This document shows, in pieces, positions 42,542-57,570 of a stretch of 64,000 nucleotides of DNA. The stretch is from Bradyrhizobium sp. NFR13 (GTDB lineage Bacteria > Pseudomonadota > Alphaproteobacteria > Rhizobiales > Xanthobacteraceae). Made by a program: the position numbers and the translations under genes. Positions within the stretch are counted from its first letter, which is position 1, and each line of letters starts with the position of its first letter. Below the pieces are notes generated by a model. That model had not been told where the DNA came from and did no database searches. It worked only from the letters and a program-made list of their open reading frames with translations. The stretch covers positions 1 to 64,000 of the forward strand of contig NZ_FOTP01000004.1 of assembly GCF_900114605.1 (NCBI RefSeq), in the 5' to 3' direction.

Positions 42542-43312
42542 CTACACGGCTAGGAAGCCTCCATCCACTGGCAAGGTCGCACCCGTGACATAGGAGGCCA
42601 TGGAAGAGGCGAGGAAGACCACGGGGCCGATCAGCTCATCGGGCTGGCCGACGCGCCCCAGTGGCGTGCGGCCGAGGAAACCGGCCAGCCGCGCGGGATC
42701 GTTGCGTGTCGCTTCGGTCATGGCCGTCTCGATCACGCCCGGCGCGATAGCATTGACGCGCACGCCGTCTTTGGCAACTTCGCGCGCCAGCGCCTGCGTC
42801 AGAAGCTTTACGCCGCCCTTGGAGGGCGAATAGCCGAGCGTATCGGCGACCCCGACGAAAGAGGCGATGGAGCCAAGATTGATCACGCTGCCGCGTCGCG
42901 CACGCAAGGCCGGCAGAAACGCATGGGTCACATTGAATACGCCATTGAGATTGACGTCGAGCACGCGCCGCCAGTTCTCCACCGCGCGTTCGGAATCGAT
43001 GCCTTCACGAATGATGATGCCGGCATTGTTGATCAGGATCGAGATGTCGCCGGCACTCGCTTTGACAGTCTGTGCGAGCCGTCGGCAGGCATCGACATCC
43101 GTAACATCGAGATGATGATGCCACGACGGCCGTCCGGTTGCTGCGATCTCGCCCGCCGTGCGCAAGGCGCCATCGCGGTCGATATCGGTCACGATGATAT
43201 CGGCGCCATGTGCAGCCAGACCCAGCGCAATCGCACGACCGTTGCCAGCGGCAGCACCCGTTATGAGCGCCAATTGACCCTTCAGCAGATCGGGGGCGAA
43301 GCTGGCCATCAT
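42542..43312 (-). CDS. Short-chain dehydrogenase/reductase
   Basis: A 256-residue classical SDR. The cofactor motif is TGAAAGNGRAIALG near residue 18, with NNAG at about 92; the catalytic Ser and the YSPSKGG motif (Tyr, Lys) lie near 155. TDIDRDG after the second strand favours NAD. The C-terminal half resembles gluconate/3-oxoacyl reductase types. Its start overlaps the stop of the flavoprotein gene by four bases (ATGA), so the two enzymes are probably made together and may oxidise the same molecule in sequence. Confidence 0.9.
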   Translation of the reverse strand: MMASFAPDLLKGQLALITGAAAGNGRAIALGLAAHGADIIVTDIDRDGALRTAGEIAATGRPSWHHHLDVTDVDACRRLAQTVKASAGDISILINNAGIIIREGIDSERAVENWRRVLDVNLNGVFNVTHAFLPALRARRGSVINLGSIASFVGVADTLGYSPSKGGVKLLTQALAREVAKDGVRVNAIAPGVIETAMTEATRNDPARLAGFLGRTPLGRVGQPDELIGPVVFLASSMASYVTGATLPVDGGFLAV

Positions 43313-45036
43313 GCGGCCTTGACCGGCGTGCCGGCGAGATGACGGCCGGCGATATAGCCGAAGGTCAGCGCGGGACCGAGCGTAATGCCGGCGCCGGGAT
43401 AATTACCGCCCATGATGCTCGCCATATCGTTGCCGGCCGCATAGAGGCCATTGATGACCTGACCGCCGGCATCGAGTGCGCGTGCCTGCGCATCGGTCCT
43501 GATGCCGGCATAAGTACCGAGATCGCCGATCACCATCTTGATGGCATAGAACGGCCCCTGTTCGATGGGGGCAACGCAGGGGTTGGGTCCATGGTTCGCG
43601 TCGCCCTGGTAGCGATTGTAAGCGCGCGAGCCCTTGCCATAGGCGGGATCGCGGCCTTCGGCGGCGGTGTTGTTGAATTGCGCGACAGTGGTGGCGAAAC
43701 CGCTGGCGTCGATGCCGGCCTTGCCGGCGAGTTCCTCGAGCGTGTTGCCTTTGATGAGATAGCCTGAGTTCAGATATTGGCCGATGGGCATGGGGAAGGG
43801 CGGCACGGCGCCGAGCCCGTATTGTCGCAAGGCGCGGTGGTCGCAAACAAGCCAGGCCGCGACCTCCTCGCCGGGCTTCGCCGCTTTCATCATCTGCTGG
43901 ACGAAGGCGTGATAGGAATTGCCCTCATTGGCGAAGCGGGCGCCGTCGCGCATCACGGCGATCACGCCTGGTTTGGCACGATCGATGAAGTGCGGCATCA
44001 CGCCCTTGCTGCCGTCCTTGCGATGGGTGACGGAGACCGGCACCCAGGCAGCGGCATTCGGCAGCGAGTCCTCGACGCGCCCGCCGGCGGACTCGGCGAG
44101 GCGAAGACCATCGCCGGTATTGCCGGTTGGGCCCGGCGAAGTGTGCTCTCGGCCGGTCGGCGCATGCGGAAACATCGCCTTGCGCCGTTCGATGTCATGC
44201 GGGAAGCCGCCGCATGCGAGCACCACGCCGCGGCGTGCGAAGATGCGGACGCGCCTGCCGTTGCGCTCGATGATGGCGCCGCGAACCGCGCCGTTTTCCA
44301 TGATCAGTTCGCGGACCGGCGATGACAGCCACAGCGGAATCTTGAGGTCGAAGGCCGATTTGGCGAGCCGGCCAGCGAGAGCGTTGCCATTGGTCAGCGT
44401 CATGCCACGGCCATAGCGCAGCACGTTCATGAAATGCTTCGACAGCCGCTTGGCGACATAGACCGCCGAGGTCAGCGATTTGGTCGCGCGCATGAAGTGG
44501 ATGATGTCCTTGCCGGAGCCGAGCATGATGCCGAACACCGTCAGTTCGGGCAGTGGCGCTCCGATGTCCTTGATGTGATCGCCAAGCTCGCGCCCGTCGA
44601 ACGGCCGCGCCACCATGGAGCGGCCACCCTGTTTGCCGCCGGGCGCTTCGGCATCGTAATCGGGGAAGGTCAGCGGCATGTCGAAGCGCACCGCTGTCTT
44701 GGAAGTGAAGAAATCCACCGCTTCCGGTCCCGCGGCGAGAAACGCATCGACGCGCGCGGCGTCAAAGCTGTTGCCGGCTTCATGGCGCAGATAGGTGCGC
44801 GCCTCGTCCGGGCTTTCATTGATGCCCCAGGCGCGCGCCAGCGACGTGCCGGGGATCCATAGCCAGCCACCGGAGCGCGCAGTCGTGCCACCGAACCGCG
44901 GCTCCTTTTCGACGATCAGAACATCGAGTCCGCTATGCTTGGCGGTGATCGCCGCCGACATGCCGGAGCATCCGGAGCCTGCGACCAGCACGTCGCATTC
45001 GTAGAGCTCGATATTCGCCTTGGGATCAACAGCCAT
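43309..45036 (-). CDS. FAD-dependent dehydrogenase (fumarate reductase/3-ketosteroid dehydrogenase type)
   Basis: A 575-residue flavoprotein of the FAD_binding_2 family. The N-terminal dinucleotide fold is VLVAGSGCSGMSAAITAKHSG followed by VEKEPRFGGTTARSGG; a C-terminal FAD-contact motif is NYPGAGITLGPALTFGYIAGR. It resembles 3-oxosteroid 1-dehydrogenase-like and tricarballylate-type dehydrogenases that introduce a C=C bond. It has no signal peptide. It starts six bases after the end of the binding-protein gene and is coupled to the SDR. The natural substrate is unknown; steroid activity should not be assumed. Confidence 0.88.
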   Translation of the reverse strand: MAVDPKANIELYECDVLVAGSGCSGMSAAITAKHSGLDVLIVEKEPRFGGTTARSGGWLWIPGTSLARAWGINESPDEARTYLRHEAGNSFDAARVDAFLAAGPEAVDFFTSKTAVRFDMPLTFPDYDAEAPGGKQGGRSMVARPFDGRELGDHIKDIGAPLPELTVFGIMLGSGKDIIHFMRATKSLTSAVYVAKRLSKHFMNVLRYGRGMTLTNGNALAGRLAKSAFDLKIPLWLSSPVRELIMENGAVRGAIIERNGRRVRIFARRGVVLACGGFPHDIERRKAMFPHAPTGREHTSPGPTGNTGDGLRLAESAGGRVEDSLPNAAAWVPVSVTHRKDGSKGVMPHFIDRAKPGVIAVMRDGARFANEGNSYHAFVQQMMKAAKPGEEVAAWLVCDHRALRQYGLGAVPPFPMPIGQYLNSGYLIKGNTLEELAGKAGIDASGFATTVAQFNNTAAEGRDPAYGKGSRAYNRYQGDANHGPNPCVAPIEQGPFYAIKMVIGDLGTYAGIRTDAQARALDAGGQVINGLYAAGNDMASIMGGNYPGAGITLGPALTFGYIAGRHLAGTPVKAA

Positions 45037-45042
45037 GAGACC

Positions 45043-46248
45043 TTACTTCTTCAGCAATGGGCATTTCGATTCAGAGACGGGCCGGAACGCGTCATCGCCC
45101 TTCACGGTCTTGACGATGTCGAGATAGTCCCAGGGCTCCTTGGACTCCGACGGCTTCTTGACGCGGGCCAGATACATGTCGCGGATGACACGGCCGTCCT
45201 CACGCAGTTTGCCGCCGTGGACGAAGGTGTCCTCGATGGGCAGTTCGCCCATCTTGGCCATCACCTTGGCCGGATCGTCGGTGCCGGCGACCTTGATGGC
45301 CTTGAGGTAATGCAGGACCGAGCCGTAGACGCCGGCCTGGATCATGGTTGGCATCACCTTGGTGCGTTCGAAGAATTTCTTCGACCAGGCGCGCGTCTTG
45401 TCATCCATGTTCCAGTAGGACGCAGTGGTGAGGTAGGTGCCCTGCGCGGCATCGAGTCCGATCGCATGCACATCCGTGTCGAACATCAGCAGACCGACCA
45501 GCTTCTGGCCGCCTTTGACGAGCCCGAATTCGCCGGACTGCTTGATCGAGTTGTCGGTGTCCTGGCCGGCATTGGCGAAGGCAACGACTTCCGCCTTCGA
45601 GCTTTGCGCCTGCAATGCGAAGGACGAGAAATCGGCAGTATTGGTCGGATGGCGAACACCGCCCAGCACCGTGCCGCCGCTCGCCTTGATGAAGCGCGTG
45701 GCGTCCTGTTCAAGCTGATTGCCGAAGGCGTAGTCGGCCGTGATGAAGAACCATGACTTGCCGCCGCCGGCGACCACAGCAGAGGCTGTCACCTTCGCAA
45801 GCGCATAGGTGTCGTAGGTGAAGTGGACCGTGTTGGGGCTGCACAGCTCGTCCGTCAGCGTGCTTGCGCCGGGGCCGGACAAGAGCGCGATCTTGTTGCG
45901 GTCTTTTGCGAGGTTATGAACCGCGATGGCGATGGCTGAGTTCGGGATGTCGACCACGGCATCGACCTTGCCGGCATCGAACCAGTTGCGGGCGATCTGG
46001 ATACCGACGTCAGACTTCATCTGGTGATCGGCGCTGACGATCTCGATCGGCTTGCCGAGCACCGTTGGGCCGAATTCCTCGAGCGCCATCTTGGCGGCTT
46101 CGACCGAGCCGGGGCCGCTGTTGTCGCGCCCCCAGCTCGAGAGGTCGGTGAGAACACCAATGCGAACGACGTCGTCGGAGACCTGAGCGGAAGCGGTGGA
46201 TGTCCAAAGCGTGAGCGCGGCTGCGCACACCAGGAACTGGCGTGTCAT
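45043..46248 (-). CDS. Branched-chain amino-acid-type ABC substrate-binding protein
   Basis: A 401-residue periplasmic binding protein of the LivJ/Peripla_BP_6 family with a 21-residue signal peptide (ending STASA). The mature N-terminus VSDDVVRIGVLTDLSSWGRDNSG and later SADHQMKSDVGIQIA fit the family, whose members bind amino acids, amides or aromatic acids. No LivHMGF-type permease or ATPase is adjacent, so it is an orphan. It heads a five-gene co-directional block that includes the flavoprotein, SDR and IclR regulator. Confidence 0.9.
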   Translation of the reverse strand: MTRQFLVCAAALTLWTSTASAQVSDDVVRIGVLTDLSSWGRDNSGPGSVEAAKMALEEFGPTVLGKPIEIVSADHQMKSDVGIQIARNWFDAGKVDAVVDIPNSAIAIAVHNLAKDRNKIALLSGPGASTLTDELCSPNTVHFTYDTYALAKVTASAVVAGGGKSWFFITADYAFGNQLEQDATRFIKASGGTVLGGVRHPTNTADFSSFALQAQSSKAEVVAFANAGQDTDNSIKQSGEFGLVKGGQKLVGLLMFDTDVHAIGLDAAQGTYLTTASYWNMDDKTRAWSKKFFERTKVMPTMIQAGVYGSVLHYLKAIKVAGTDDPAKVMAKMGELPIEDTFVHGGKLREDGRVIRDMYLARVKKPSESKEPWDYLDIVKTVKGDDAFRPVSESKCPLLKK

Positions 46249-46444: not shown

Positions 46445-47368
46445 CTATTGCCGCCTGTGGCTCGCATTCACCGCAATTGCCGCAGCCGCGGTACGGTTCT
46501 CGACGCCAAGTTTGGCGTAGATCTGCTCAAGATGCTTGTCGACGGTGCGGGGGCTAAGGCCAAGAATTTGCGCGATATCGCGGTTGCTCTTGCCCTTGCT
46601 GAGCCAGGACAGCACTTCACCCTCGCGGCCGGTGAGGCCCAGCTCCTTGCTGAACTCGGCGGGGGCGGTTGGCGCGTTTTCCTTGGCGAGCCGGAGTAGG
46701 AATTCGTCGGAGCCGACTTTCCCCATATATTGCAGACGCAGCAGCTCGTTGCTCGGAAAGCCCGATGACGGTGCCGGCTTGGCGCCCGGCCGCTGCATCT
46801 GCTCGAGCCACTGCATCATGACTGGTGGCAGCAGCAATTCATCATTGGGGGCGGCGATCAGGTGATCGCTGAGCAATTTCTGCGCCTGCGGCGTCGCCCA
46901 CAGGATATTGCCCTTGCCGCTCACCGCGAGAAGGAAACGCCCGGAGACATCCAGCGCCGTGCGTGCGCTTTGCGTCAGCCGCGCATTGGCGAGATGCACG
47001 CGGATGCGCGCCAGCATTTCCTCGATGATGATCGGCTTCGTGACGTAATCGACGCCGCCCGCCTCAAGGCCGCGCACGATGTGTTCGGTCTCGGACAGCC
47101 CGGTCATGAAAATCACGGGCACGTCGCCGAGACCCGCATCGCGCTTCAGCCGGCGGCAGGTCTCGAAGCCGTCGATCCCCGGCATGACGGCATCCAGCAG
47201 GATGATATCCGGCGTGATCTGTTCGACAATGCGCATGGCCGCAGCGCCGTCCATGGCCACCATCACGGTCATGCCGGCGCCGTCCAAGGCATCAGTTAGC
47301 AGCCGCAATGTTTCCGGCGAGTCATCTACCACCAGCGCGACGTCGCGTTTTTTCGATTCAGTGGTCAT
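46445..47368 (-). CDS. LuxR-type response regulator paired with the transporter-kinase
   Basis: A 307-residue response regulator. The receiver domain (residues 8-125) has acidic Asp15/Asp16, phosphoacceptor Asp59 (IILLDAVMPG) and Lys111. Residues about 130-225 form a PAS-like middle region (GRFLLAVSGKGNILWATPQA). Residues 240-300 form a LuxR/FixJ-type helix-turn-helix (LTGREGEVLSWLSKGKSNRD; LGLSPRTVDKHLEQIYAKLG). Its start overlaps the kinase gene by 11 bases, so the pair is co-translated. It probably binds DNA when phosphorylated; the palindrome at 50826-50843 is a candidate target. Confidence 0.93.
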   Translation of the reverse strand: MTTESKKRDVALVVDDSPETLRLLTDALDGAGMTVMVAMDGAAAMRIVEQITPDIILLDAVMPGIDGFETCRRLKRDAGLGDVPVIFMTGLSETEHIVRGLEAGGVDYVTKPIIIEEMLARIRVHLANARLTQSARTALDVSGRFLLAVSGKGNILWATPQAQKLLSDHLIAAPNDELLLPPVMMQWLEQMQRPGAKPAPSSGFPSNELLRLQYMGKVGSDEFLLRLAKENAPTAPAEFSKELGLTGREGEVLSWLSKGKSNRDIAQILGLSPRTVDKHLEQIYAKLGVENRTAAAAIAVNASHRRQ

Positions 47369-50300
47369 AGGTGTACAGCGTCTTCAAAGTGGCCATGTAT
47401 TGATCGAGGTCGAAACGGTCGATCAGCGAACGCATCTGGGCGACGAAGTCGGCATGTTCGGGGTGTTCATTGCCGATCTCGTCGAGCTTCAACTGGATGG
47501 CACGAATGTGCCCCATCTGCCCGAGGCTAATGAGTTCCTCTACATGATGAACGGGCGGCCGGGTGCCGCTATTCGGCGTCCATTGCGGCAGCGGTGCCAC
47601 TTCGTCGCGTTCGTATTGCCATTCGATCTTCAGGAGTTGTCCGATCTGTTCGAGCAGTCGCGGCAGTTCGATCGGCTTCATGAGGTAGCCGTCATGGAAT
47701 GGCTGGGCGAGCGGCGCGCCATGGGCTTCCAGCGCGCTGGCCGAGACCATCAGGATGCGCGCCTGATGGTGACCCGATGATCGCAGCTTTTCGGCGACGG
47801 TCCAGCCATCCATGCCGGCCATGGAGATGTCGAGCAGGAACAGGTCGGGACGGCAATGCTGGGCGAGGCTGAGACAGGCCTGGCCATCCGGCGCGCTGAG
47901 CAGGATGAAGCCGAGCGGCGTCAGCACCTGACGCAAGAGGTCGCGCTGGGTCGGATCGTCGTCGGTCACAAGAATGGTCTTGCGCGCGCCGTGATAGCCA
48001 TAGATCGGCGCGTCCACCGGCGCGATGCGCGTGGGATTGGTCACCTCGGAGAGCAGCATCTTGACGCGGAATGTGCTGCCGGTGCCGACCTCGCTGGAGA
48101 CGCGGATATCGCCGCCCATGACGCCGGCCAGCAGTTTGGAGATGGTGAGGCCGAGGCCCGTGCCCGTATGCGGCTGCGCGGCGCCGAGTGCGCCGCGCTC
48201 GAAAGGTGCGAAGATGCGTTCCAGATCGTCCGGCCGGATACCCGGGCCGGTGTCGATGATCTCGAATTCGGCGACCGGACTGCGATAATGGATCACGAAC
48301 TGCACGCTGCCTACTTGCGTGAACTTGATGGCGTTGGAGAGCAGGTTGATCAGGATCTGGCGCAGACGTTTCTCATCGGCATAGACGACGGTGGGCAGGA
48401 TGTTTGGCCGCCGAAATACGAAGTCGATGCCCTTGGCTGCGGCCTGCAGGCGGAACATGCCGACCAGCTGATCGAGGAAGTCGGTGAGGCGGACCTCGTC
48501 GCGCGACAGATAGAGGCGCCCGGCCTCGATCTTGGAAATATCCAGAATGCCGTCGATCAGGCCGGAGAGATGATCGGCGCTGCGTTTCACAACGCGGACT
48601 TGATCGCGCGGCCGCGTCTGCAGGCTGTCGTCCTGCTCCAGGAGCTGCGCATAGCCCGATATGGCGTTGAGCGGCGAGCGCAGCTCGTGGCTCAGGCCGA
48701 CGACGTAACGGCTCTTGGCGAGGTTGGCAGATTCTGCGACTTCCTTGGCGCGTTGCAATTCGGCGTCGGTGCGCTTATGGGCGTCGATTTCCTGCATCAG
48801 CAGGGTGGTCTGCCGCTTGGTCTCGGCTTCGGCAGCGCGGCGACTTTGCTTGGCCAGCACGAACAGCCATGCCACCACGCCGATGATGATCGCCAGCGCG
48901 AAGAACACTTTCCACAGGACTTCGGAGACCTGCGCACTATCCCCCGGAGCTGCGGCGGAGGTTTGCAGATAGATGAGTCCCAGCGTCAGACCGACGAGGC
49001 CGGCAGCCATCACGAACACGCCGAGATAATGTCCGAGTTGCGAATTCAGCCGCGCCAGAACCGGCTCCGGCAGCAATTTGCCGAATGTCGCCGACATCTG
49101 CGCGTCGATCCGCGCATGCGGCTTGCAGAGATCGTGGCAGCGGGCATCGAGCGAGCAGCACAGTGAGCAGATCGGACCAGCATAGGCCGGGCAGTGGGCC
49201 ATGTCCTCGGGCTCGAAGGAATGTTCGCAGATACAGCACTGGATCGTCGCCATGTTCTGCCAGGCCCGTTTCGGCTTGCGGGCGATGTAGTATTTTCCGC
49301 CCGTGGCAAAGGCGATGATGGGGGCGGTGGCGAGTGCGGTGATCAACGCCACGAATGGCGATAGCGCCTTGGCCGTGGGGCCGAACAATCCATAGAAGGC
49401 GCTGACCGACATCACCGTGGCGGCGAGCATGGCGCCGACGCCGACCGGGTTGATGTCGTAGAGATGCGCGCGCTTGAACTCCATCTGCTGCGGGCGCAGC
49501 CCGAGCGGCTTGTTGATGACCAGATCGGCGACCAGCGCGCCGACCCATGCAATCGCAACGTTGGAATACAACGCCAGCGTCTGCTCCAGCGCCTTGTAGA
49601 CGCCGATCTCCATCAGCAGCAGCGCAACGAGCACGTTGAACACCAGCCAGACCACGCGGCCGGGATGACTGTGTGTGAGACGCGAGAAGAAATTCGACCA
49701 GGCGATCGAGCCGGCATAGGCGTTGGTGACGTTGATCTTGAGCTGCGACAGGATCACGAAGGTGCCGGTTAAAGCCAGCGCTAGATCGGGCTGGGACAGC
49801 ACATAGCGAAACGCTTCGAGATACATATGCGCGGGTTCGGCGGCGTGTTCGGCCGAGACGCCATGCGTGAGCGCGAAATAAGCAAGGAACGAGCCGGCCA
49901 GCAGTTTGACCGCGCCGACGATGATCCAGCCCGGGCCCGCGCATAGCAGCGCCACCCACCAGCTCGCACGCGAGCTGCGGCGGTCGCGCGGCAGAAAGCG
50001 CAGGAAGTCGACCTGCTCACCGATCTGGGCGACCAGCGAGAACACGACGGATGCGGCAGTGCCGAACAGCAGGAGATCCAGATGACCGGCGGCGCTGCCG
50101 TGCTCGCCGGGAAATTTTGTCCATGCCACGAAGGAATCGCGGCTCGCATAGGCTATCGCCGCGAAGGGCAGCAGGTTGAGCACCAGCCAGATCGGCTGGG
50201 TCCAGAGCTGGAAACGGCTGATCAGCGTGATGCCGTGAGTCACCAGCGGGATGATGACCACGGCCGATATCAGGTAGCCGATCGGGCGCGGAATATCGAA

Positions 50301-50732
50301 ACACATCTCCAGCGCGGAGGCGAGAATGACGGCCTCGATGGCGAAAAAGATGAAGGTGAACGACGCGTAGATCAGCGACGTGACCGTCGAGCCGATATAG
50401 CCGAAGCCGGCGCCGCGGGTGAGGAGGTCGATATCGATGCCGCATTTGGCGGCGTGATAGGCGATCGGCAATCCGCAGCAGAAGATGATGACGCTGACCA
50501 CGAGGATCGCCGCGGTGGCGTTGGTCATGCCGTAATTGATGGTGATGGTGCCGCCGATGGCCTCGAGAGCCAGAAACGAAATGGCGCCGAGGGCCGTATT
50601 GGCGACCCGCGCGGCGGACCAGCGCCGGGCGCTCTTCGCCGTAAAGCGGAGTGCGTAATCTTCCAGGGTCTGGTTGGCGACCCATTGATTGTACTGGCGT
50701 CTGACGCGGTCGATACGCTGCCGCCCTGCCAC
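47358..50732 (-). CDS. NCS1 transporter-fused hybrid sensor histidine kinase
   Basis: A 1124-residue membrane protein from GTG 50732 (aggag upstream; the longer frame to 50882 has no site and would run through the divergent promoter). Residues about 20-490 form a complete NCS1 purine/cytosine permease-like transporter (NQTLEDYALRF; RVANTALGAISFLALEAIGG; about 12 helices). Then comes a cysteine-rich, zinc-ribbon-like patch (Cys499, 500, 502, 514, 522, 525, 526, 532, 536), two more helices (about 570-590, 606-627), a coiled coil, HisKA (His682 in SHELRSPLNA), HATPase (GTGLGLTISK), a receiver (Asp968 in LLDISM, Lys1019) and a C-terminal helical tail. It probably senses a transported or bound nitrogen compound. 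Confidence 0.93.
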   Translation of the reverse strand: MAGRQRIDRVRRQYNQWVANQTLEDYALRFTAKSARRWSAARVANTALGAISFLALEAIGGTITINYGMTNATAAILVVSVIIFCCGLPIAYHAAKCGIDIDLLTRGAGFGYIGSTVTSLIYASFTFIFFAIEAVILASALEMCFDIPRPIGYLISAVVIIPLVTHGITLISRFQLWTQPIWLVLNLLPFAAIAYASRDSFVAWTKFPGEHGSAAGHLDLLLFGTAASVVFSLVAQIGEQVDFLRFLPRDRRSSRASWWVALLCAGPGWIIVGAVKLLAGSFLAYFALTHGVSAEHAAEPAHMYLEAFRYVLSQPDLALALTGTFVILSQLKINVTNAYAGSIAWSNFFSRLTHSHPGRVVWLVFNVLVALLLMEIGVYKALEQTLALYSNVAIAWVGALVADLVINKPLGLRPQQMEFKRAHLYDINPVGVGAMLAATVMSVSAFYGLFGPTAKALSPFVALITALATAPIIAFATGGKYYIARKPKRAWQNMATIQCCICEHSFEPEDMAHCPAYAGPICSLCCSLDARCHDLCKPHARIDAQMSATFGKLLPEPVLARLNSQLGHYLGVFVMAAGLVGLTLGLIYLQTSAAAPGDSAQVSEVLWKVFFALAIIIGVVAWLFVLAKQSRRAAEAETKRQTTLLMQEIDAHKRTDAELQRAKEVAESANLAKSRYVVGLSHELRSPLNAISGYAQLLEQDDSLQTRPRDQVRVVKRSADHLSGLIDGILDISKIEAGRLYLSRDEVRLTDFLDQLVGMFRLQAAAKGIDFVFRRPNILPTVVYADEKRLRQILINLLSNAIKFTQVGSVQFVIHYRSPVAEFEIIDTGPGIRPDDLERIFAPFERGALGAAQPHTGTGLGLTISKLLAGVMGGDIRVSSEVGTGSTFRVKMLLSEVTNPTRIAPVDAPIYGYHGARKTILVTDDDPTQRDLLRQVLTPLGFILLSAPDGQACLSLAQHCRPDLFLLDISMAGMDGWTVAEKLRSSGHHQARILMVSASALEAHGAPLAQPFHDGYLMKPIELPRLLEQIGQLLKIEWQYERDEVAPLPQWTPNSGTRPPVHHVEELISLGQMGHIRAIQLKLDEIGNEHPEHADFVAQMRSLIDRFDLDQYMATLKTLYTYDH

Positions 50733-50825
50733 TACCTCGCTCCTGACCCTGTTAAACTTAGAAGACCCGCCAACTACGCATGTTTGCGTGCTGGAAAAAC
50801 CTACGTCGGCATTTTGCGGTGCAGT

Positions 50826-50843
50826 ATACGCGATCTCGCGTAT
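50826..50843. promoter_or_regulatory. Perfect palindrome, candidate operator
   Basis: ATACGCGA-TC-TCGCGTAT: two perfect eight-base arms around a two-base spacer. It sits in the 176-bp region between the divergent kinase (GTG 50732) and urtA (ATG 50909) genes. No T tract follows, so a terminator is unlikely. Position and symmetry fit a dimeric regulator such as the co-encoded LuxR-type protein; this is inference. Confidence 0.6.
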
Positions 50844-50908
50844 CCGGGTAGCGCTCAAGTTCAGCAATGCTTGCCTCACCAATAAGCGTCCAAACCAGTG
50901 GGGTTGTC

Positions 50909-52168
50909 ATGTCAGACGAGAAGAAACCGGGCCTGCAGTCGCCGTTACGGCGCAAATTGCTGATGGGAATGGCCGCGTTGCCAGCGATGTCCATGCTTCC
51001 GCGCACATCTTTTGCGCAGGCACCGGCCACCTCGGCCATCAACACCACGGGCCTTGCGGTCACCGATACGGAAGTCACCGTCGGTATCCTGCACTCGGTC
51101 ACCGGTACCATGGCCATCTCGGAAACCGGCTCGGTGCAGGCTGAAAAGCTCGCCATCGACCAGATCAACGCCATGGGCGGCGTGCTCGGCCGCAAGATCA
51201 AATTCATCCAGGAAGACGGTGCATCGGACTGGCCGACCTTCGCCGAAAAGGCCAAGAAGCTGCTGGTCAATGACAAGGTCGCGGCCATCATGGGCTGCTG
51301 GACCTCGGCCTCCCGCAAGGCCGTGTTGCCGGTCATGGAACAGTATAACGGCATGCTGTACTATCCGACCTTCTATGAAGGTCTCGAGCAGTCCAAGAAC
51401 GTCATCTACACCGGTCAGGAAGCGACGCAGCAGATCCTCGCCGGTCTCGACTGGGTCTCCAAGACCAAGAATGGCAAGAGCTTCTACCTGATCGGCTCGG
51501 ATTATATCTGGCCGCGCACGTCGATGAAGATCGCCCGCAAGCACATCGAGGGCAAGCTCGGCGGCAAGGTCTCGGGCGAAGAATACTTCCCGCTCGGCCA
51601 CACCCAGTTCAACTCGGTCATCAACAAGATCAAGCTGACCAAGCCGGACGTGATCTATGCCGCGGTTGTCGGCGGCTCCAACGTCGCCTTCTACAAGCAG
51701 CTCAAGGCGGCTGGCATCGACCTGTCGAAGCAGACCATGCTGACCATCTCGGTCACCGAGGACGAAATCGACGGTATCGGTGGCGAGAACATCGCGGGCG
51801 CCTATGCCTGTATGAAGTACTTCCAGTCACTCGATAATCCGAACAACAAGGAATTCGTCGCCGCCTTCAAGAAGATGTGGGGCGAGAAGACCGTGATCGG
51901 CGACGTGACGCAGGCTGCCTATCTCGGCCCGTGGCTGTGGAAAATGACGGTCGAAAAGGCCGGCTCGTTCGATGTCGACAAGATCGCCGCGGCTTCCGCC
52001 GGCATCGAGTTCACCAAGGCGCCGGAAGGCTACGTCAAGATCCATCCAAACCACCATCTGTGGTCGAAGGCCCGCGTCGGGCAGGCGCAGCTCGATGGCC
52101 AGTTCAAGGTGGTCTACGAGACGCCCGAACTGATCGAGCCGGATCCGTTCCCGAAGGGCTACCAGTAA
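50909..52168 (+). CDS. urtA: Urea ABC transporter substrate-binding protein UrtA
   Basis: A 419-residue periplasmic protein of the UrtA/FmdD group in the Peripla_BP_5/6 family. The ATG at 50909 is preceded by gggg; the signal region contains LRRKLLMGMAALPAM and ends SFAQA, a twin-arginine-like arrangement. Diagnostic segments are TVGILHSVTGTMAISE near the mature N-terminus, CWTSASRKAVLPVME, YYPTFYEG and the late PNHHLWSKARVGQ. It binds urea or short-chain amides. It heads urtABCDE-fmdAB, divergent from the transporter-kinase. Confidence 0.95.
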   Translation: MSDEKKPGLQSPLRRKLLMGMAALPAMSMLPRTSFAQAPATSAINTTGLAVTDTEVTVGILHSVTGTMAISETGSVQAEKLAIDQINAMGGVLGRKIKFIQEDGASDWPTFAEKAKKLLVNDKVAAIMGCWTSASRKAVLPVMEQYNGMLYYPTFYEGLEQSKNVIYTGQEATQQILAGLDWVSKTKNGKSFYLIGSDYIWPRTSMKIARKHIEGKLGGKVSGEEYFPLGHTQFNSVINKIKLTKPDVIYAAVVGGSNVAFYKQLKAAGIDLSKQTMLTISVTEDEIDGIGGENIAGAYACMKYFQSLDNPNNKEFVAAFKKMWGEKTVIGDVTQAAYLGPWLWKMTVEKAGSFDVDKIAAASAGIEFTKAPEGYVKIHPNHHLWSKARVGQAQLDGQFKVVYETPELIEPDPFPKGYQ

Positions 52169-52301
52169 GCCTTCCTCCCAAGCGCCGCGTGATCGCCGCG
52201 CCCCACCTCTCCCTGGCGCGGACGACCTATCCGCGCAAGACGACCCCGCGTCGCGTCTCCACGCGCGGCGCGGGACCCTTTCCCTGACGGAGGACGGATC
52301 G

Positions 52302-53228
52302 ATGTTCGGCGACTATTCCATTGGTGACCTTGGCGCCATCTTTGCGATGCAGGGCTTTGCCGGCCTGATCCTGTTCTCGGTCTATGTGCTGATGGCCCTC
52401 GGTCTCGCGATCATCTTCGGCCAGATGGGCGTCATCAACATGGCCCATGGCGAATTCATGATCCTGGGCGCCTACGTCACCTGGATGACGTCGAGCTTCT
52501 TCCAGTCGCATCTCCCGTCGCTGTTCTCCGGCTACTTCTTTGTCGCCATGATCCTTGCCTTCATTGCCTCCGGTAGCTTGGGGATGCTGGTCGAATGGGG
52601 GCTGATACGGCATCTCTACAAGCGCCCGCTCGATACACTGCTGGCGACCTGGGGCCTCAGCCTGATCCTGCAGCAGGCCTATCGTTCGGTATTCGGTGCG
52701 CGCGAAGTCGGTGTCGAGTTGCCGCAGTGGATGATGGGCTCGAAGCAGGTCACCGACACGATCGAAGTGCCGATCAACGGCATCTTCGTGATGTGCCTGA
52801 CGCTGGCCATCACGATGGTCGTCGCCTGGATCATGTTCAAGTCGCGCTGGGGCAAGCAGGTGCGCGCCGTGGTGCAGAACCGCGTGATGGCTGGTGCCGT
52901 CGGCATCAATACCGAGAAAGTCGACCGCTACACCTTCGGCCTCGGCTGCGGCATCGCCGGGATCGCAGGCTCGGCCTTTACGATGATCGGCTCCACCGGT
53001 CCGACCTCGGGTCAGCTCTACATTGTCGATACGTTCCTCGTCGTGGTGTTCGGCGGCGCGGCCAGCCTGTTCGGCACAATCGCCTCGGCCTTCACCATCT
53101 CCCAGGCGCAGTCGACCATGGAGTTCTTCATGTCCGGCTCGATGGCCAAGGTGCTGACGCTGCTGACCATCGTGGCGATCCTGATGATCCGGCCGCAGGG
53201 CCTGTTCGCCCTCAAGGTCCGCAAGTAA
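52302..53228 (+). CDS. urtB: Urea ABC transporter permease UrtB
   Basis: A 308-residue inner-membrane permease of the LivH type with about eight helices. Typical segments are MALGLAIIFGQMGVINMAHGE near residue 28 and TWGLSLILQQAYRSVFG near 111, the latter characteristic of UrtB. A strong ribosome binding site (ggagga) precedes the ATG. It pairs with UrtC. It lies 133 bases after urtA; no terminator is evident in that gap. Confidence 0.94.
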   Translation: MFGDYSIGDLGAIFAMQGFAGLILFSVYVLMALGLAIIFGQMGVINMAHGEFMILGAYVTWMTSSFFQSHLPSLFSGYFFVAMILAFIASGSLGMLVEWGLIRHLYKRPLDTLLATWGLSLILQQAYRSVFGAREVGVELPQWMMGSKQVTDTIEVPINGIFVMCLTLAITMVVAWIMFKSRWGKQVRAVVQNRVMAGAVGINTEKVDRYTFGLGCGIAGIAGSAFTMIGSTGPTSGQLYIVDTFLVVVFGGAASLFGTIASAFTISQAQSTMEFFMSGSMAKVLTLLTIVAILMIRPQGLFALKVRK

Positions 53229-53259
53229 GCGCGCATAGAAAGAGCAGGGCATCATCACC

Positions 53260-54405
53260 ATGATCAATTCACGCTTCTTCAACCGCTCGGAACTGATCGG
53301 TTTCCTGTCGCTGCTGTTGTTGCTCGCGGTGATCCTGCCGCTGTTTCTCGACGTGTTCCGTCTCAACCTCGTCGCCAAATATCTGACCTATGCCTTCGTC
53401 GCCATCGGCCTTGTGATGTGCTGGGGCTATGGCGGCATTCTCAGTCTCGGCCAGGGCGTGTTTTTCGGCCTCGGCGGCTACTGCATGGCGATGTTCCTGA
53501 AGCTGGAGGCGTCGAGCGTCGAGAACACCAAGATCCAGTCGACCCCCGGCATTCCGGATTTCATGGACTGGAACCAGATCACGTCGCTGCCGATGTTCTG
53601 GAAGCCGTTCCACTCGCTGCCGCTGACCATCATCGCCATCCTCGTGGTGCCGACGCTGCTGGCCTTCATCATCGGCGCTGCGATGTTCAAGCGCCGCGTC
53701 GGCGGCGTCTATTTCGCCATCATCACCCAGGCCATCGCGGCCATCGCTACCATCCTGATCATCGGTCAGCAGGGCTATACCGGCGGCATCAATGGCATGA
53801 CCGACCTGCGCACGCTGAACGGATGGGATATCCGCACCGACCACGCCAAGGTCATTCTCTACTTCTTCGAAGTATTCGTACTGTTCGCCTGTATCATCGC
53901 GGCGCAGTTCATCCGGCTGACCAAGCTCGGCCGCATCCTGGTGGCGATGCGCGAGCAGGAAGACCGCGTGCGCTTCTCCGGCTACAGCGTCGCCAATTTC
54001 AAGATCTTCGCCTTCTGTGCCGCGGCGATGTTCGCCGCGATCGGCGGCGCCATGTTCACGCTGCAGATCGGTTTCATGTCGCCATCCTTCGTCGGCATCG
54101 TGCCGTCGATCGAAATGGTCATCTACACCGCCGTCGGTGGCCGCATGTCGATCTTCGGCGCCGTCTACGGCACACTGCTGGTGAACTACGCCAAGACCAT
54201 GCTCTCGGAATCATTCCCCGAACTCTGGCTGTTCGGCCTTGGCGGTCTGTTCATCGCAGTGGTGCTGTTCTTCCCGAATGGTCTGTCAGGCATTTGGCGC
54301 GATCACGTGGCGCGCCATGTGGACCGGCTGTTCGCCATGCGCTCGTCGGCATCGCGCAAAGCCTGGGCCAGCAAATCCGTCGCCGACGGCGCACCGGCAG
54401 AGTAG
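53260..54405 (+). CDS. urtC: Urea ABC transporter permease UrtC
   Basis: A 381-residue LivM-type permease with about ten helices. UrtC features are MCWGYGGILSLGQGVFFGLGGYCMAMFLK near residue 47, the extracytoplasmic insertion around SVENTKIQSTPGIPDFM, and INGMTDL near 183. The C-terminus has a basic cytoplasmic tail. It follows urtB by 31 bases and precedes urtD by 10. With UrtB it forms the urea or amide channel. Confidence 0.94.
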   Translation: MINSRFFNRSELIGFLSLLLLLAVILPLFLDVFRLNLVAKYLTYAFVAIGLVMCWGYGGILSLGQGVFFGLGGYCMAMFLKLEASSVENTKIQSTPGIPDFMDWNQITSLPMFWKPFHSLPLTIIAILVVPTLLAFIIGAAMFKRRVGGVYFAIITQAIAAIATILIIGQQGYTGGINGMTDLRTLNGWDIRTDHAKVILYFFEVFVLFACIIAAQFIRLTKLGRILVAMREQEDRVRFSGYSVANFKIFAFCAAAMFAAIGGAMFTLQIGFMSPSFVGIVPSIEMVIYTAVGGRMSIFGAVYGTLLVNYAKTMLSESFPELWLFGLGGLFIAVVLFFPNGLSGIWRDHVARHVDRLFAMRSSASRKAWASKSVADGAPAE

Positions 54406-54415
54406 GGGACAGGTC

Positions 54416-55171
54416 ATGCTTATCGGACATCAGCCCAAGGATTTCCTGCTCGCGGTGGAAGGGCTCACCGTTTCCTTCGACGGCTTCAAGGCAGTCAATG
54501 ATCTGTCCTTCTATGTAGAGGAGAACGAAATCCGCGTGATCATTGGCCCCAACGGCGCCGGAAAGACCACGGTGCTCGACCTGATCTGCGGCAAGACCAA
54601 AGCCACCTCGGGTTCGGTTCAGTTTCGCGGCACGGAGCTGACCAAGCTGAAGGAAAACCAGATCGTGCAGGCCGGCGTCGGCCGCAAGTTCCAGACGCCG
54701 TCGGTCTACGAGGATCTCACGGTGTTCGAGAATCTGGAGATCTGCTATCCGCGCGGCCGCTCGGTGTTCGGCTCGCTGATGTTCAAGCGCGACGCCGCGG
54801 TGAAGGAGCGCGTCGAGGAAGTCGCCGAGATGATCTTCCTCAAGGATCGCCTCAATATGTATGCGGACGTGCTGTCGCATGGCCAGAAGCAGTGGCTCGA
54901 GATCGGCATGCTGCTGATTCAGGACCCGGATCTTCTGATGCTCGACGAGCCCGTCGCCGGCATGAGCGTCAGCGAGCGGATCAAGACGGCGGAGCTGTTG
55001 AACACGATCATCAAGAACCGCTCGGTGCTGGTGATCGAACACGACATGAAATTCGTCGAGGACATCGCCCACAAGGTGACCGTGCTGCATCAGGGACAGA
55101 TCCTGTCCGAAGGCACCATGGAGAAGGTTCAGAACGATCCCAAGGTCATCGAAGTCTATCTGGGTCATTGA
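54416..55171 (+). CDS. urtD: Urea ABC transporter ATPase UrtD
   Basis: A 251-residue LivG-type ATPase from ATG 54416 (aggtc upstream); the longer open frame inside urtC is not used. Walker A is GPNGAGKTT near residue 44, the signature region is LSHGQKQWLEIGMLL (the usual SGG is replaced by SHG, as in UrtD proteins), Walker B is LLMLDEPVAGM, and the switch His is in IEHDM. UrtD-type ATPases are recognised by this variant signature. Confidence 0.94.
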   Translation: MLIGHQPKDFLLAVEGLTVSFDGFKAVNDLSFYVEENEIRVIIGPNGAGKTTVLDLICGKTKATSGSVQFRGTELTKLKENQIVQAGVGRKFQTPSVYEDLTVFENLEICYPRGRSVFGSLMFKRDAAVKERVEEVAEMIFLKDRLNMYADVLSHGQKQWLEIGMLLIQDPDLLMLDEPVAGMSVSERIKTAELLNTIIKNRSVLVIEHDMKFVEDIAHKVTVLHQGQILSEGTMEKVQNDPKVIEVYLGH

Positions 55172-55181
55172 GGAGATCATC

Positions 55182-55871
55182 ATGCTCGCGATCAACGATC
55201 TCCACGTCGCTTACGGCCAGAGCGAAGTTCTGCACGGCCTGAATGTCTCGGTGCAGCCCAACGAAATCGTGGCCATCATGGGCCGCAATGGCATGGGCAA
55301 GACCACTCTGATGAAATCGCTCATGGGCATCGTCCCGACCAAGTCGGGCTCGGTGATCATGGAAGGCAAGGAGCTGGGCGCGCTGAAGAGCTATGAGCGC
55401 GTCGCGCGTGGCCTCGCTTACGTGCCGCAGGGCCGGATGATCTTCTCCCATATGACGGTGAAGGAGAATATCGAGACAGGCCTCGTCGCCTCCGGCGAGA
55501 AGGAGGTGCCGGGCGATCTCTATGAGCTGTTCCCGGTGCTGCTGGAGATGAAAGGCCGCCGCGGCGGCAATCTCTCCGGCGGTCAGCAGCAGCAACTTGC
55601 CATCGCCCGCGCGCTCGCCACCAAGCCGAAGGTGCTGTTGCTGGACGAGCCCACCGAAGGCATCCAGCCATCGATCATCAAGGACATGGCCCGCACGTTG
55701 AAGCACATCCGCGACACCAAGGGCCTGTCGATCATTGTGTCCGAACAGGTGCTGAGCTTTGCGCTCGATGTCGCCGACCGCGTGCTGGTGATCGAGAACG
55801 GTGAGATCGTTCGCGACGAAGCCCGCGAGGGCATCGATGCCGCGCAGATCGCCAAGTACCTGTCCGTCTAA
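55182..55871 (+). CDS. urtE: Urea ABC transporter ATPase UrtE
   Basis: A 229-residue LivF-type ATPase. Walker A is GRNGMGKTT near residue 36, the signature LSGGQQQQLAIARAL near 131 and Walker B VLLLDEPTEGIQPSI. The GRNGMGKTTLMKSLMG sequence is typical of UrtE. It follows urtD by 10 bases with ggag in between. Completes the five-component transporter. Confidence 0.94.
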   Translation: MLAINDLHVAYGQSEVLHGLNVSVQPNEIVAIMGRNGMGKTTLMKSLMGIVPTKSGSVIMEGKELGALKSYERVARGLAYVPQGRMIFSHMTVKENIETGLVASGEKEVPGDLYELFPVLLEMKGRRGGNLSGGQQQQLAIARALATKPKVLLLDEPTEGIQPSIIKDMARTLKHIRDTKGLSIIVSEQVLSFALDVADRVLVIENGEIVRDEAREGIDAAQIAKYLSV

Positions 55872-55920
55872 TTCACCACGCGTCCAACCACCAAGACCAG
55901 TAACCGAAGGGGAGCATTGA

Positions 55921-57150
55921 ATGCCAGATACACTGATCAAGGTCGACCTTACGCAATCGGCCTACGACAACGACATGATTCACAACCGCTGGCATTCGGA
56001 CATTCCCATGGTCGCATGGGTCAATCCCGGCGATGATTTCATCGTCGAGACCTATGACTGGACCGGCGGCTTCATCAAGAACAACGACAGCGCCGACGAC
56101 GTGCGCGACATCGATCTGTCGATCGTGCACTTCCTGTCCGGCCCGATCGGCGTCAAGGGCGCCGAGCCTGGCGATCTTCTCGTTGTGGATCTGCTCGATG
56201 TGGGCCCGATGAAGGATAGCCTCTGGGGCTTCAATGGCTTCTTCTCCAAGAAGAACGGCGGCGGTTTCCTGACGGATCACTTTCCGGAAGCGCAGAAGTC
56301 GATCTGGGACTTCAAAGGCATGTACACCTCGTCGCGCCACATCCCGGGCGTGAACTTCGCCGGCCTGATCCATCCCGGTCTGATCGGCTGTCTGCCCGAT
56401 CCGAAGCTGCTCGCCACCTGGAACGAGCGTGAGACCGCACTGATCGCAACCAATCCGGAGCGTGTGCCTGGCCTCGCCAATCCGCCATTCGGCCCGACCG
56501 CGCATATGGGACGCATGAAAGGTGAAGCCCGTGACAAGGCTGCTGCCGAAGGCGCTCGCACCGTGCCGCCGCGCGAGCATGGCGGCAATTGCGACATCAA
56601 GGACCTGTCGCGCGGCTCGAAAGTGTATTTCCCGGTCTATGTGCCCGGTGGCGGCCTCTCCATGGGCGACCTGCACTTCAGCCAAGGCGACGGCGAAATC
56701 ACCTTCTGCGGGGCCATCGAGATGGCCGGCTGGCTGCATATCAAGGTCGATGTCATCAAGGACGGTGTGTCGAAATACGGCATCAAGAATCCGGTGTTCA
56801 AGCCGTCGCCGATGACGCCGAATTACAACGACTTCCTGATCTTCGAAGGCATCTCGGTGGATGAGGCCGGCAAGCAGCATTATCTCGATGTACATATCGC
56901 CTATCGTCAGGCCTGTCTGAATGCCATCGAATATCTGAAGAAGTTCGGCTATTCCGGCGCGCAGGCCTATTCGATCCTCGGCACCGCGCCGGTGCAGGGC
57001 CACATCTCCGGGGTCGTCGACGTACCCAACGCCTGCGCCACGCTGTGGCTGCCGACGCAGATCTTCGACTTCGATATCAATCCGTCCTCGGCGGGGCCGG
57101 TCAAGCACATCAAGGGCGACATCCAGATGCCGCTCTCGCCGGACAAGTAA
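55921..57150 (+). CDS. fmdA: Formamidase (acetamidase/formamidase family)
   Basis: A 409-residue cytoplasmic amidohydrolase of the FmdA/AmdA family, which hydrolyses formamide (or acetamide) to ammonia and the acid. Family segments are NRWHSDIPMVAWVNPGDDF near residue 22, FLSGPIGVKGAEPGDLLVV near 75, EHGGNCDIKDLSRGSKVYFP near 219 and MGDLHFSQGDGE near 250. A strong ribosome binding site (aaggggag) precedes the ATG. Its location after urtE suggests that the transporter imports amides as well as, or instead of, urea. No urease gene is in this window. Confidence 0.94.
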   Translation: MPDTLIKVDLTQSAYDNDMIHNRWHSDIPMVAWVNPGDDFIVETYDWTGGFIKNNDSADDVRDIDLSIVHFLSGPIGVKGAEPGDLLVVDLLDVGPMKDSLWGFNGFFSKKNGGGFLTDHFPEAQKSIWDFKGMYTSSRHIPGVNFAGLIHPGLIGCLPDPKLLATWNERETALIATNPERVPGLANPPFGPTAHMGRMKGEARDKAAAEGARTVPPREHGGNCDIKDLSRGSKVYFPVYVPGGGLSMGDLHFSQGDGEITFCGAIEMAGWLHIKVDVIKDGVSKYGIKNPVFKPSPMTPNYNDFLIFEGISVDEAGKQHYLDVHIAYRQACLNAIEYLKKFGYSGAQAYSILGTAPVQGHISGVVDVPNACATLWLPTQIFDFDINPSSAGPVKHIKGDIQMPLSPDK

Positions 57151-57162
57151 CGCGGTCAACTC

Positions 57163-57201
57163 GGCTGCGGGGTTGGCGTCACGACCCCGCAGCCCCTTTT
57201 T
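57163..57201 (+). terminator. Rho-independent terminator after fmdA
   Basis: Stem GGCTGCGGGGT and ACCCCGCAGCC (eleven perfect pairs) with a ten-base loop, followed by CC and five T residues. It lies between fmdA and fmdB, so fmdB may be read through only in part or have its own promoter. Confidence 0.85.
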
Positions 57202-57228
57202 CTGATGTGTGAACGAGAGTGAAGCGCC

Positions 57229-57570
57229 ATGCCGGTCTATGAATATCTCTGCGACGATTGCGGCCCCTTCACCGACATGCGGCCGATGGCGGAATGCGAT
57301 GATCCTCAGGACTGTCCGCATTGCGCGACACAGGCGCCGCGCGTGATCCTGACCGCGCCCGCCTTCTTCTGCATGCCCTCCGACAAACGCAAGGCCCACG
57401 CTACCAATGAGCGCAGCCGCAATGCGCCGAAGACATCGGCGGAGTACAAGGCCTCCCATGGAGCCGGCTGCGGTTGCTGTTCCGGGAAGAAGCCGTCGCG
57501 ATTGGTCAAGAAGACGGCAACCGGCGCCAAGAGTTTCCCGACCGCGCGGCCGTGGATGATCAGCCACTGA
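57229..57570 (+). CDS. fmdB: FmdB family zinc-ribbon protein
   Basis: A 113-residue small protein beginning MPVYEYLCDDCGPFTDMRPM, the hallmark of the FmdB/CxxC_CXXC_SSSS family. Zinc ligands are CDDC and CPHC; a second cysteine-rich patch, CGCC, occurs near residue 82. FmdB of Methylophilus was described as a putative regulator of formamidase; the true function is unsettled. It follows fmdA across a terminator and likely belongs to the same functional unit. Confidence 0.9.
   Translation: MPVYEYLCDDCGPFTDMRPMAECDDPQDCPHCATQAPRVILTAPAFFCMPSDKRKAHATNERSRNAPKTSAEYKASHGAGCGCCSGKKPSRLVKKTATGAKSFPTARPWMISH

Follow-up and report, generated by a model that had tools for sequence, protein, structure and literature searches.

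A transporter-fold sensor kinase facing a urea/amide transport and formamidase operon in Bradyrhizobium

We analyzed a stretch of 64,000 nucleotides from Bradyrhizobium sp. NFR13 (contig NZ_FOTP01000004.1, positions 1 to 64,000; hereafter the window), in which genes for a hybrid sensor kinase and a LuxR-type response regulator face the operon urtABCDE-fmdA-fmdB, encoding a urea transporter and a formamidase (Table 1). In the predicted model the kinase N-terminus is a domain of the NCS1 transporter fold, and nearly all sampled kinases of this family have urt/fmd or urease genes as neighbors. We consider it probable that this domain is a transporter-derived receptor for a small carboxamide, which would relay to a regulator controlling urtABCDE-fmdA-fmdB.

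The kinase N-terminus adopts an NCS1 fold in the predicted model

The signaling modules of the pair were recognized directly. Pfam identifies HisKA, HATPase_c and REC in the kinase, and His682, the N and G boxes and Asp968 of the receiver are all there, making this a hybrid histidine kinase. The partner combines REC with a GerE helix-turn-helix, as in LuxR/NarL-type response regulators.

For residues 1-640 of the kinase, Pfam returned 0 matches up to E = 10, leaving PF02133 below its cut-off, and phmmer of the N-terminal domain against the PDB returned a single unrelated match (E 0.59). An AlphaFold2 model of residues 1-650, with 35 sequences as input (pLDDT 81.6, pTM 0.81), was compared to the PDB by Foldseek. 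The top five matches were Mhp1 and CodB (E 1.7e-8 to 6.5e-7, TM-scores of 0.69-0.77 on the target), and the model is a 12-transmembrane LeuT-type fold nearest to these proteins. It does not classify as an SLC5 transporter domain, the SLC5 sodium/iodide symporter NIS appearing only at rank 8 (E 3.8e-5).

We built two profiles, A2 from the family plus its kinase-free relatives, including the most distant ones, and A1 without the most distant ones. A2 detects CodB at E 3e-10 and, by hhalign, aligns to NCS1 permeases at 96.6% (E 5e-10), indicating homology at the profile level. PF02133 is matched by 3/8 members of the set with distant kinase-free homologues (best E 1.8e-7). Elsewhere in the same genome, one PF02133 protein is encoded on contig C10. 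An earlier note on this DNA had proposed a full NCS1 permease-like domain; the structural model, Foldseek and the profiles that include kinase-free relatives support this, while Pfam and phmmer do not.

The family is linked to urea and amide genes

Using kinase residues 1-640 as the query, relatives were found in 84 of the 297 genomes sampled from the order, with 91 matches, of which 3 are weak and 88 are kinases, including that of the window. We read the other 87 kinase loci with their flanks, scoring as UrtA-like any protein of at least 34% identity. A UrtA-like gene, fmdA and/or urease genes lay in the stretch read at 84 of these 87 loci. Two of the misses (L047, L097) lie on contigs that stop 0.4-0.6 kb upstream of the kinase, in the place expected for urt, and the third (L089) is a 5.9-kb contig on which the kinase N-terminus is cut off, with no fmdA in 3.7 kb downstream.

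The same linkage holds more widely. In the phylum sample the family occurs in 52/398 genomes, and 31 of the 32 loci outside the order have urt-like, fmdA or urease neighbors, the miss being a 4.8-kb contig (the kinase-free locus L253 was excluded). From a search of genome contigs, the best 80 of at least 587 confirmed relatives were read; two are open at the contig end, though urtA is still visible in both, and among the remaining 78, urt-like, fmdA or urease neighbors occur in 77, the one miss (L151) being cut upstream. The order, phylum and genome-contig sets share some genomes, so that these counts are not additive. Across the overlapping sets, a relative of the regulator was found in the stretch of 195/197 long-kinase loci. 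Family matches were also present in 533 plasmid records, of which Klebsiella accounts for 342.

The window's own genome holds, in 6.2 Mb, 3 UrtA-like places including that of the window (at least 34% identity over more than half of the protein), together with 2 clear urease alpha genes. A urtA or urease neighbor within 20 kb would be expected by chance in roughly 2% of cases, an estimate in which fmdA is not counted and one genome stands for all. Linkage of the architecture to urt/fmd or urease genes is near-universal in these samples, and the earlier note's proposal, which depended on conserved linkage to urt/fmd genes, passes this test.

Four wirings recur

Comparison of the loci reveals four arrangements. 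The first, that of the window, is urtABCDE with fmdA(B), often accompanied by amiE. The second has a different urt operon (UrtA ~38% identical to that of the window), and its stretch may or may not include urease genes; the third has urease genes without a divergent urt operon (outside the order). In the fourth, the kinase is shorter (~880-900 aa, too short for REC) and fmdA lies 2-4 kb downstream; in eight such loci (L081-L088), to which the truncated L089 is related, fmdA begins 2.1-3.9 kb downstream of the kinase. The wiring to urt-fmd described in the earlier note is thus that of the window type and not the only one, since the three others recur.

Several genomes carry two copies, pairing one fmdA-linked kinase with one urease-linked kinase (G435, G493, G513, G636) or with one second-urt copy (G165, G282, G286). 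We labeled the copies as amide (fmdA or window-type urtA) or urea (urease or second-type urt, the latter presumptively), excluding other rows. On a quick tree of 158 rows, which is approximate and has many weak branches, the label needs at least 6 changes.

In the window's own genome a kinase of this family occurs once. Contig C16 carries another UrtA-like gene (40%) and, ~7 kb away, a urease alpha gene, with no kinase of the family there. Because urease sits there, urea breakdown and the window urt-fmd cluster are separate in this genome, and this separation makes formamide, short amides or a combination of urea and amides the favored local cue.

We inspected one Klebsiella plasmid record of the 342 with a match (L124, NZ_CP103587.1, 7909-29905). 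It is conjugative, and its kinase faces urtABCDE followed by a gene annotated as a formamidase, whose product resembles AmiE (36%) and not FmdA. Also in the vicinity are creatininase fragments and another acetamidase/formamidase-ABC-ANTAR cluster.

A palindrome follows urtA

A perfect 18-bp palindrome, ATACGCGATCTCGCGTAT, lies upstream of urtA. It matches once in the window, with 0.02 matches expected, and is the sole exact copy in the 6.2-Mb genome. We derived an operator consensus, ATACGTCA-NN-TGACGTAT (scored out of 16), from 165 divergent urtA/kinase regions, many of them close kin. In these same regions the best palindrome score has a mode of 14/16, compared to 9 in base-composition shuffles, and 147/165 reach at least 12/16 against the consensus, compared to 5/825 shuffles.

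The consensus was then applied to all 23 held-out kinase loci in which a UrtA-like gene is present. The stretch-wide best site lies within 160 bp upstream of the inferred UrtA-like start in 19 of the 23, and is the sole best in 18. Among held-out loci in which urtA is divergent and displaced by more than 0.8 kb, with other genes between it and the kinase, the site remains at urtA in 16/19, though tied in L165. Outside the order, L260 and L267 have the site before a urtA-like gene 6-10 kb from the kinase. Since the palindrome follows urtA, urtA is the likely target. We therefore regard the 18-bp palindrome as the likely operator for urtA, and its position at the urtA promoter is consistent with control of the urt operon by a LuxR-type regulator.

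A strict form, TACGTCRNNYGACGTA, was present in 44/84 kinase-positive and 5/213 kinase-negative genomes of the order (Fisher p 1.5e-23, uncorrected for kinship); the window's own palindrome does not match this form.

Other patterns were noted around these sites. Five genomes of the order (G037, G068, G135, G215, G235) contain the strict palindrome and have no kinase match. The Methylovirgula locus L128 has weak palindrome-like sites (12/16) before a urtA-like stretch and before amiE. In the intergenic region of the window (50733-50908) and its relatives, GCACCGC recurs at offset 21 (31 of the 156 regions with a site) and the half-site GACGTA at offset 36 (29/156).

The predicted pocket departs from that of nucleobase carriers

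We mapped the pocket from alignments alone, rather than from coordinates. F129, E133 and N337 fall at Mhp1 W117, Q121 and N318 (N337 with a one-residue gap), while K332/I333 occupy the positions of the Na2 residues S312/T313, leaving no Ser/Thr pair on TM8. L233 is placed at W220 by the CodB alignment, the multiple alignment being gapped in TM6 there. We take W117, W220, S312 and T313 to be the Mhp1 residue numbers, in agreement with the counted alignments. The aromatic sandwich of NCS1 proteins, the role of Mhp1 N318 and Q121 in substrate binding and the CodB equivalents are given in sections of PMC9379551. With F129 and L233, the kinase lacks this sandwich (Trp on TM3, Phe/Trp on TM6). The lost sandwich and Na2 pair argue against a nucleobase carrier, and the lysine K332 may stand in for sodium.

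We compared 141 copies (81 amide-labeled and 60 urea-labeled; near-duplicates, unlabeled and short rows excluded). E133, Q236, E239, Q240, K332, N334 and N337 are invariant. As these residues are the same in amide- and urea-labeled copies, urea or a small amide is the probable ligand, and a shared small-carboxamide ligand is the simplest reading of the invariant pocket. The earlier note had listed urea, amides, hydantoin and purines as ligands, with cytosine among the compounds to try. Urea and amides are favored over hydantoin, and a purine or cytosine ligand is unlikely, because the aromatic sandwich and Na2 residues are replaced and the neighbors of the kinases read are urea/amide genes.

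Specificity columns (e.g. Y92, T336, V275, F129) were considered as determinants of amide versus urea. They mainly mark one rhizobial clade and fail to repeat in independent urea-labeled groups, and we claim no determinant.

The cysteine patch belongs to the transporter module

Both the cysteine-rich patch and the two extra helices reported in the earlier note are present in the kinase sequence and model. The patch comprises Cys499, 502, 514, 522, 525, 526, 532 and 536, and its cysteines, C500 excepted, are invariant across 35 aligned fused proteins. The helices are long (565-594 and 596-649 in the model), each is hydrophobic enough to span a membrane, and the second heads towards HisKA.

The patch is entire in a kinase-free relative from Methylovirgula (L128, 549 aa) and partial in one from Acinetobacter (L125, 535 aa). 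Among distant kinase-free relatives, two retain residual cysteines and the Rhodococcus relative has none. The occurrence of the patch in kinase-free relatives rules it out as a kinase-specific linker or sensor and places it in the transporter module; the zinc-ribbon-like patch of the earlier note is thus real and is not a separate kinase-side element.

Kinase-free relatives that are 43% and 53% identical lie beside urease or amidase genes. On the Acinetobacter plasmid (L125, 7950-9557) the relative, annotated as a hypothetical protein, directly precedes ureEFG-D-ABC and is a candidate urea transporter. On the Methylovirgula plasmid (L128, 14685-16331) the 53% identical relative directly follows the kinase and regulator and precedes amiE, and this locus also holds fmdA.

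A proposed receptor and its alternatives

We propose that the kinase works as a receptor derived from a transporter and may even be a true transceptor. The ligand of the NCS1-fold domain would be a small carboxamide, with urea, formamide and closely related short-chain amides the likeliest candidates. Its binding would shift the conformation of the transporter fold, and this change would pass through the zinc-ribbon-like module and the two-helix membrane hairpin to the kinase dimerization helices. Phosphate would move from His682 to Asp59 of the regulator, either directly or via the receiver Asp968. The regulator would bind the palindrome and control, most likely activate, urtABCDE-fmdA-fmdB, so that uptake and formamidase would appear when substrate is present. 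The earlier note had inferred an NCS1 receptor that switches on urt-fmd; the conserved linkage and the palindrome at the urtA promoter agree with this core, and a purine or cytosine ligand and urt-fmd as the sole wiring do not survive.

Several observations weigh against this proposal. For the fold, hhalign with A1 alone reaches just 52% probability (E 1.4e-4). For the ligand, the distant kinase-free Rhodococcus relative (31% identical) adjoins hydantoinase and PucR genes. For the operator, when one mismatch is allowed the pattern has 2 places in the own genome and its reversed control 7; at that setting it is no commoner than chance, and the exact match alone is informative there. Four held-out loci have no site at urtA (L127, L210, L264, L268), the last three being the exceptions among the 19 with a displaced urtA. 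No good site lies within 450 bp of the kinase in seven urease-linked loci, all outside the order (L242, L244, L247, L258, L266, L270, L273; 8-11/16), or in the eight flanked short-kinase loci (8-10/16); random 450-bp stretches mostly score 8-10 of 16. The linkage would also be expected if the kinase sensed nitrogen status or a product such as ammonium. In a tolC mutant of Sinorhizobium meliloti, expression of SMb20602-20605 declines along with that of nitrate-transport genes and amtB (PMC2912261, in part). These genes are probably the operon facing the S. meliloti kinase, and global nitrogen control may dominate.

Among the alternatives, a coupled transceptor fares best, and we consider it possible if rather unlikely. 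Here the NCS1 domain would still transport urea or amide, probably not via the usual Na+ site, and the kinase would read turnover instead of occupancy. The kinase-free relatives are placed beside urease and amidase genes as real transporters would be, and the SLC5 domain of CbrA is able to mediate histidine uptake (PMC13022988, in part). However, the Na2 Ser/Thr pair is replaced by K332/I333, and the adjacent UrtABCDE pump makes transport by the sensor redundant.

It is less likely still that the kinase answers to another cue, such as nitrogen limitation, ammonium, pH, or metal or redox state via the Cys ribbon, with the urt, fmd and urease genes as nitrogen-scavenging targets. The ribbon is strongly conserved, urease and formamidase release ammonium, and the S. 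meliloti genes show nitrogen-type co-expression (PMC2912261, in part; gene identity probable only). On the other hand, the ribbon is also found in kinase-free transporters and hence is not specific to kinase input, and the recurrent neighbors act on carboxamides, not on ammonium or nitrate. An ordinary hybrid kinase beside urt-fmd by chance, with the N-terminus a mere membrane anchor, we regard as highly improbable, for although the kinase and regulator modules are textbook, the neighborhood is kept in 84/87 loci, making coincidence very unlikely, and several polar positions in the core never vary among 141 copies.

Thus, a carboxamide receptor derived from a transporter remains our preferred reading. 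Beyond the window we put forward, tentatively and with less confidence, a wider picture of a widespread and so far undescribed family of NCS1-fold transceptor kinases. They would be direct urea/small-amide receptors with a pocket reduced from the nucleobase ureide motif, a lysine in place of Na+ and their own operator code, and they would have been repeatedly rewired between formamidase and urease clusters.

Layout of the locus

The kinase and regulator genes overlap by 11 bp (47358-47368), and 176 bp separate the kinase start from urtA at 50909, for which an in-frame ATG at 50867 is an alternative start. All 5/5 subunits of the Urt urea ATP-binding cassette (ABC) transporter score above their NCBIfam cut-offs, and FmdA passes the equivalog cut-off for formamidase. 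The layout in the earlier note (1124-residue kinase, overlap, gap and urtABCDE-fmdA-fmdB) agrees with the coordinates, Pfam and NCBIfam. On the minus strand, a periplasmic binding protein gene (Peripla_BP_6) and an open reading frame that looks by eye like a flavoprotein adjoin the regulator (43309-46248).

Table 1 Features of the kinase-urt-fmd locus, in window positions.
Feature	Position	Strand	Remarks
REC-LuxR response regulator	46445..47368	-	307 aa; REC and GerE by Pfam; Asp59 predicted phospho-acceptor
Hybrid sensor kinase, predicted NCS1 fold	47358..50732	-	1124 aa, GTG start; residues: NCS1-like domain ~20-485, Cys-rich ribbon 499-536, TM hairpin 565-649, HisKA 673-738 (His682), HATPase_c 786-893, REC 920-1030 (Asp968), C-terminal tail of ~90 residues
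Perfect 18-bp palindrome	50826..50843	.	predicted operator of the response regulator
urtA, substrate-binding protein	50909..52168	+	TIGR03407, 544 bits (cut-off 492.75)
urtB, permease	52302..53228	+	TIGR03409 above cut-off
urtC, permease	53260..54405	+	TIGR03408 above cut-off
urtD, ATPase	54410..55171	+	TIGR03411 above cut-off
urtE, ATPase	55182..55871	+	TIGR03410 above cut-off
fmdA, formamidase	55921..57150	+	NF045496, 766 bits (cut-off 500); PF03069
fmdB, FmdB-type zinc-ribbon protein	57229..57570	+	RPWMISH tail; NF053663 and TIGR02605 above cut-off

Comparison to known systems

To our knowledge, there is no known two-component receptor for urea or formamide, and among open-licence papers we found neither such a receptor nor an NCS1-kinase fusion. 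The amide/urea ABC system FmdDEF of Methylophilus, with its FmdA formamidase, follows the same logic of transport plus formamidase; we know of no transporter-kinase as its regulator. The legend of a urea-gene figure in PMC13296017 names a hybrid histidine kinase and a LuxR regulator, and no transporter domain is mentioned in the part of that paper considered.

If our proposal is correct, the window kinase would be a two-component urea/formamide receptor with relatives in 52/398 genomes of the phylum sample and 533 plasmid records, and would extend the range of transporter folds that have become kinase sensors. The fmdA-linked and urease-linked copies within one genome allow comparison, and the palindrome could be used as a reporter operator.

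Judged by sequence, the novelty lies in an NCS1 version, which has strong genomic support, of the known SLC5 and Amt kinase fusions. The SLC5-STAC kinases CbrA, CrbS and RpuS likewise join a LeuT-type transporter domain to a histidine kinase in nutrient sensing, and their partner regulators control uptake or catabolic genes (PMC13022988, PMC9100948 and PMC5715377, each in part). The window kinase differs in having an NCS1 instead of an SLC5 fold, probably in its class of ligand, and, from Pfam comparison only, in carrying a Cys-rich ribbon and transmembrane hairpin in the position of STAC. In the ammonium transporter-kinase fusion of Kuenenia a transporter domain also senses a small nitrogen compound, but the fold is Amt and the ligand ammonium (PMC5764959, in part). 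The metformin transporter MetT is an NCS1 member for an acyclic nitrogen compound and is reported as likely proton-coupled; compared by description only, it is a transporter with its own hydrolase genes, and no kinase is mentioned in the part of PMC13390362 considered. Mhp1 and CodB share the fold of the window kinase, and N337 aligns with Mhp1 N318, whereas W117, Q121, W220 and S312/T313 become F129, E133, L233 and K332/I333, and the window protein adds the fused kinase and the Cys ribbon.

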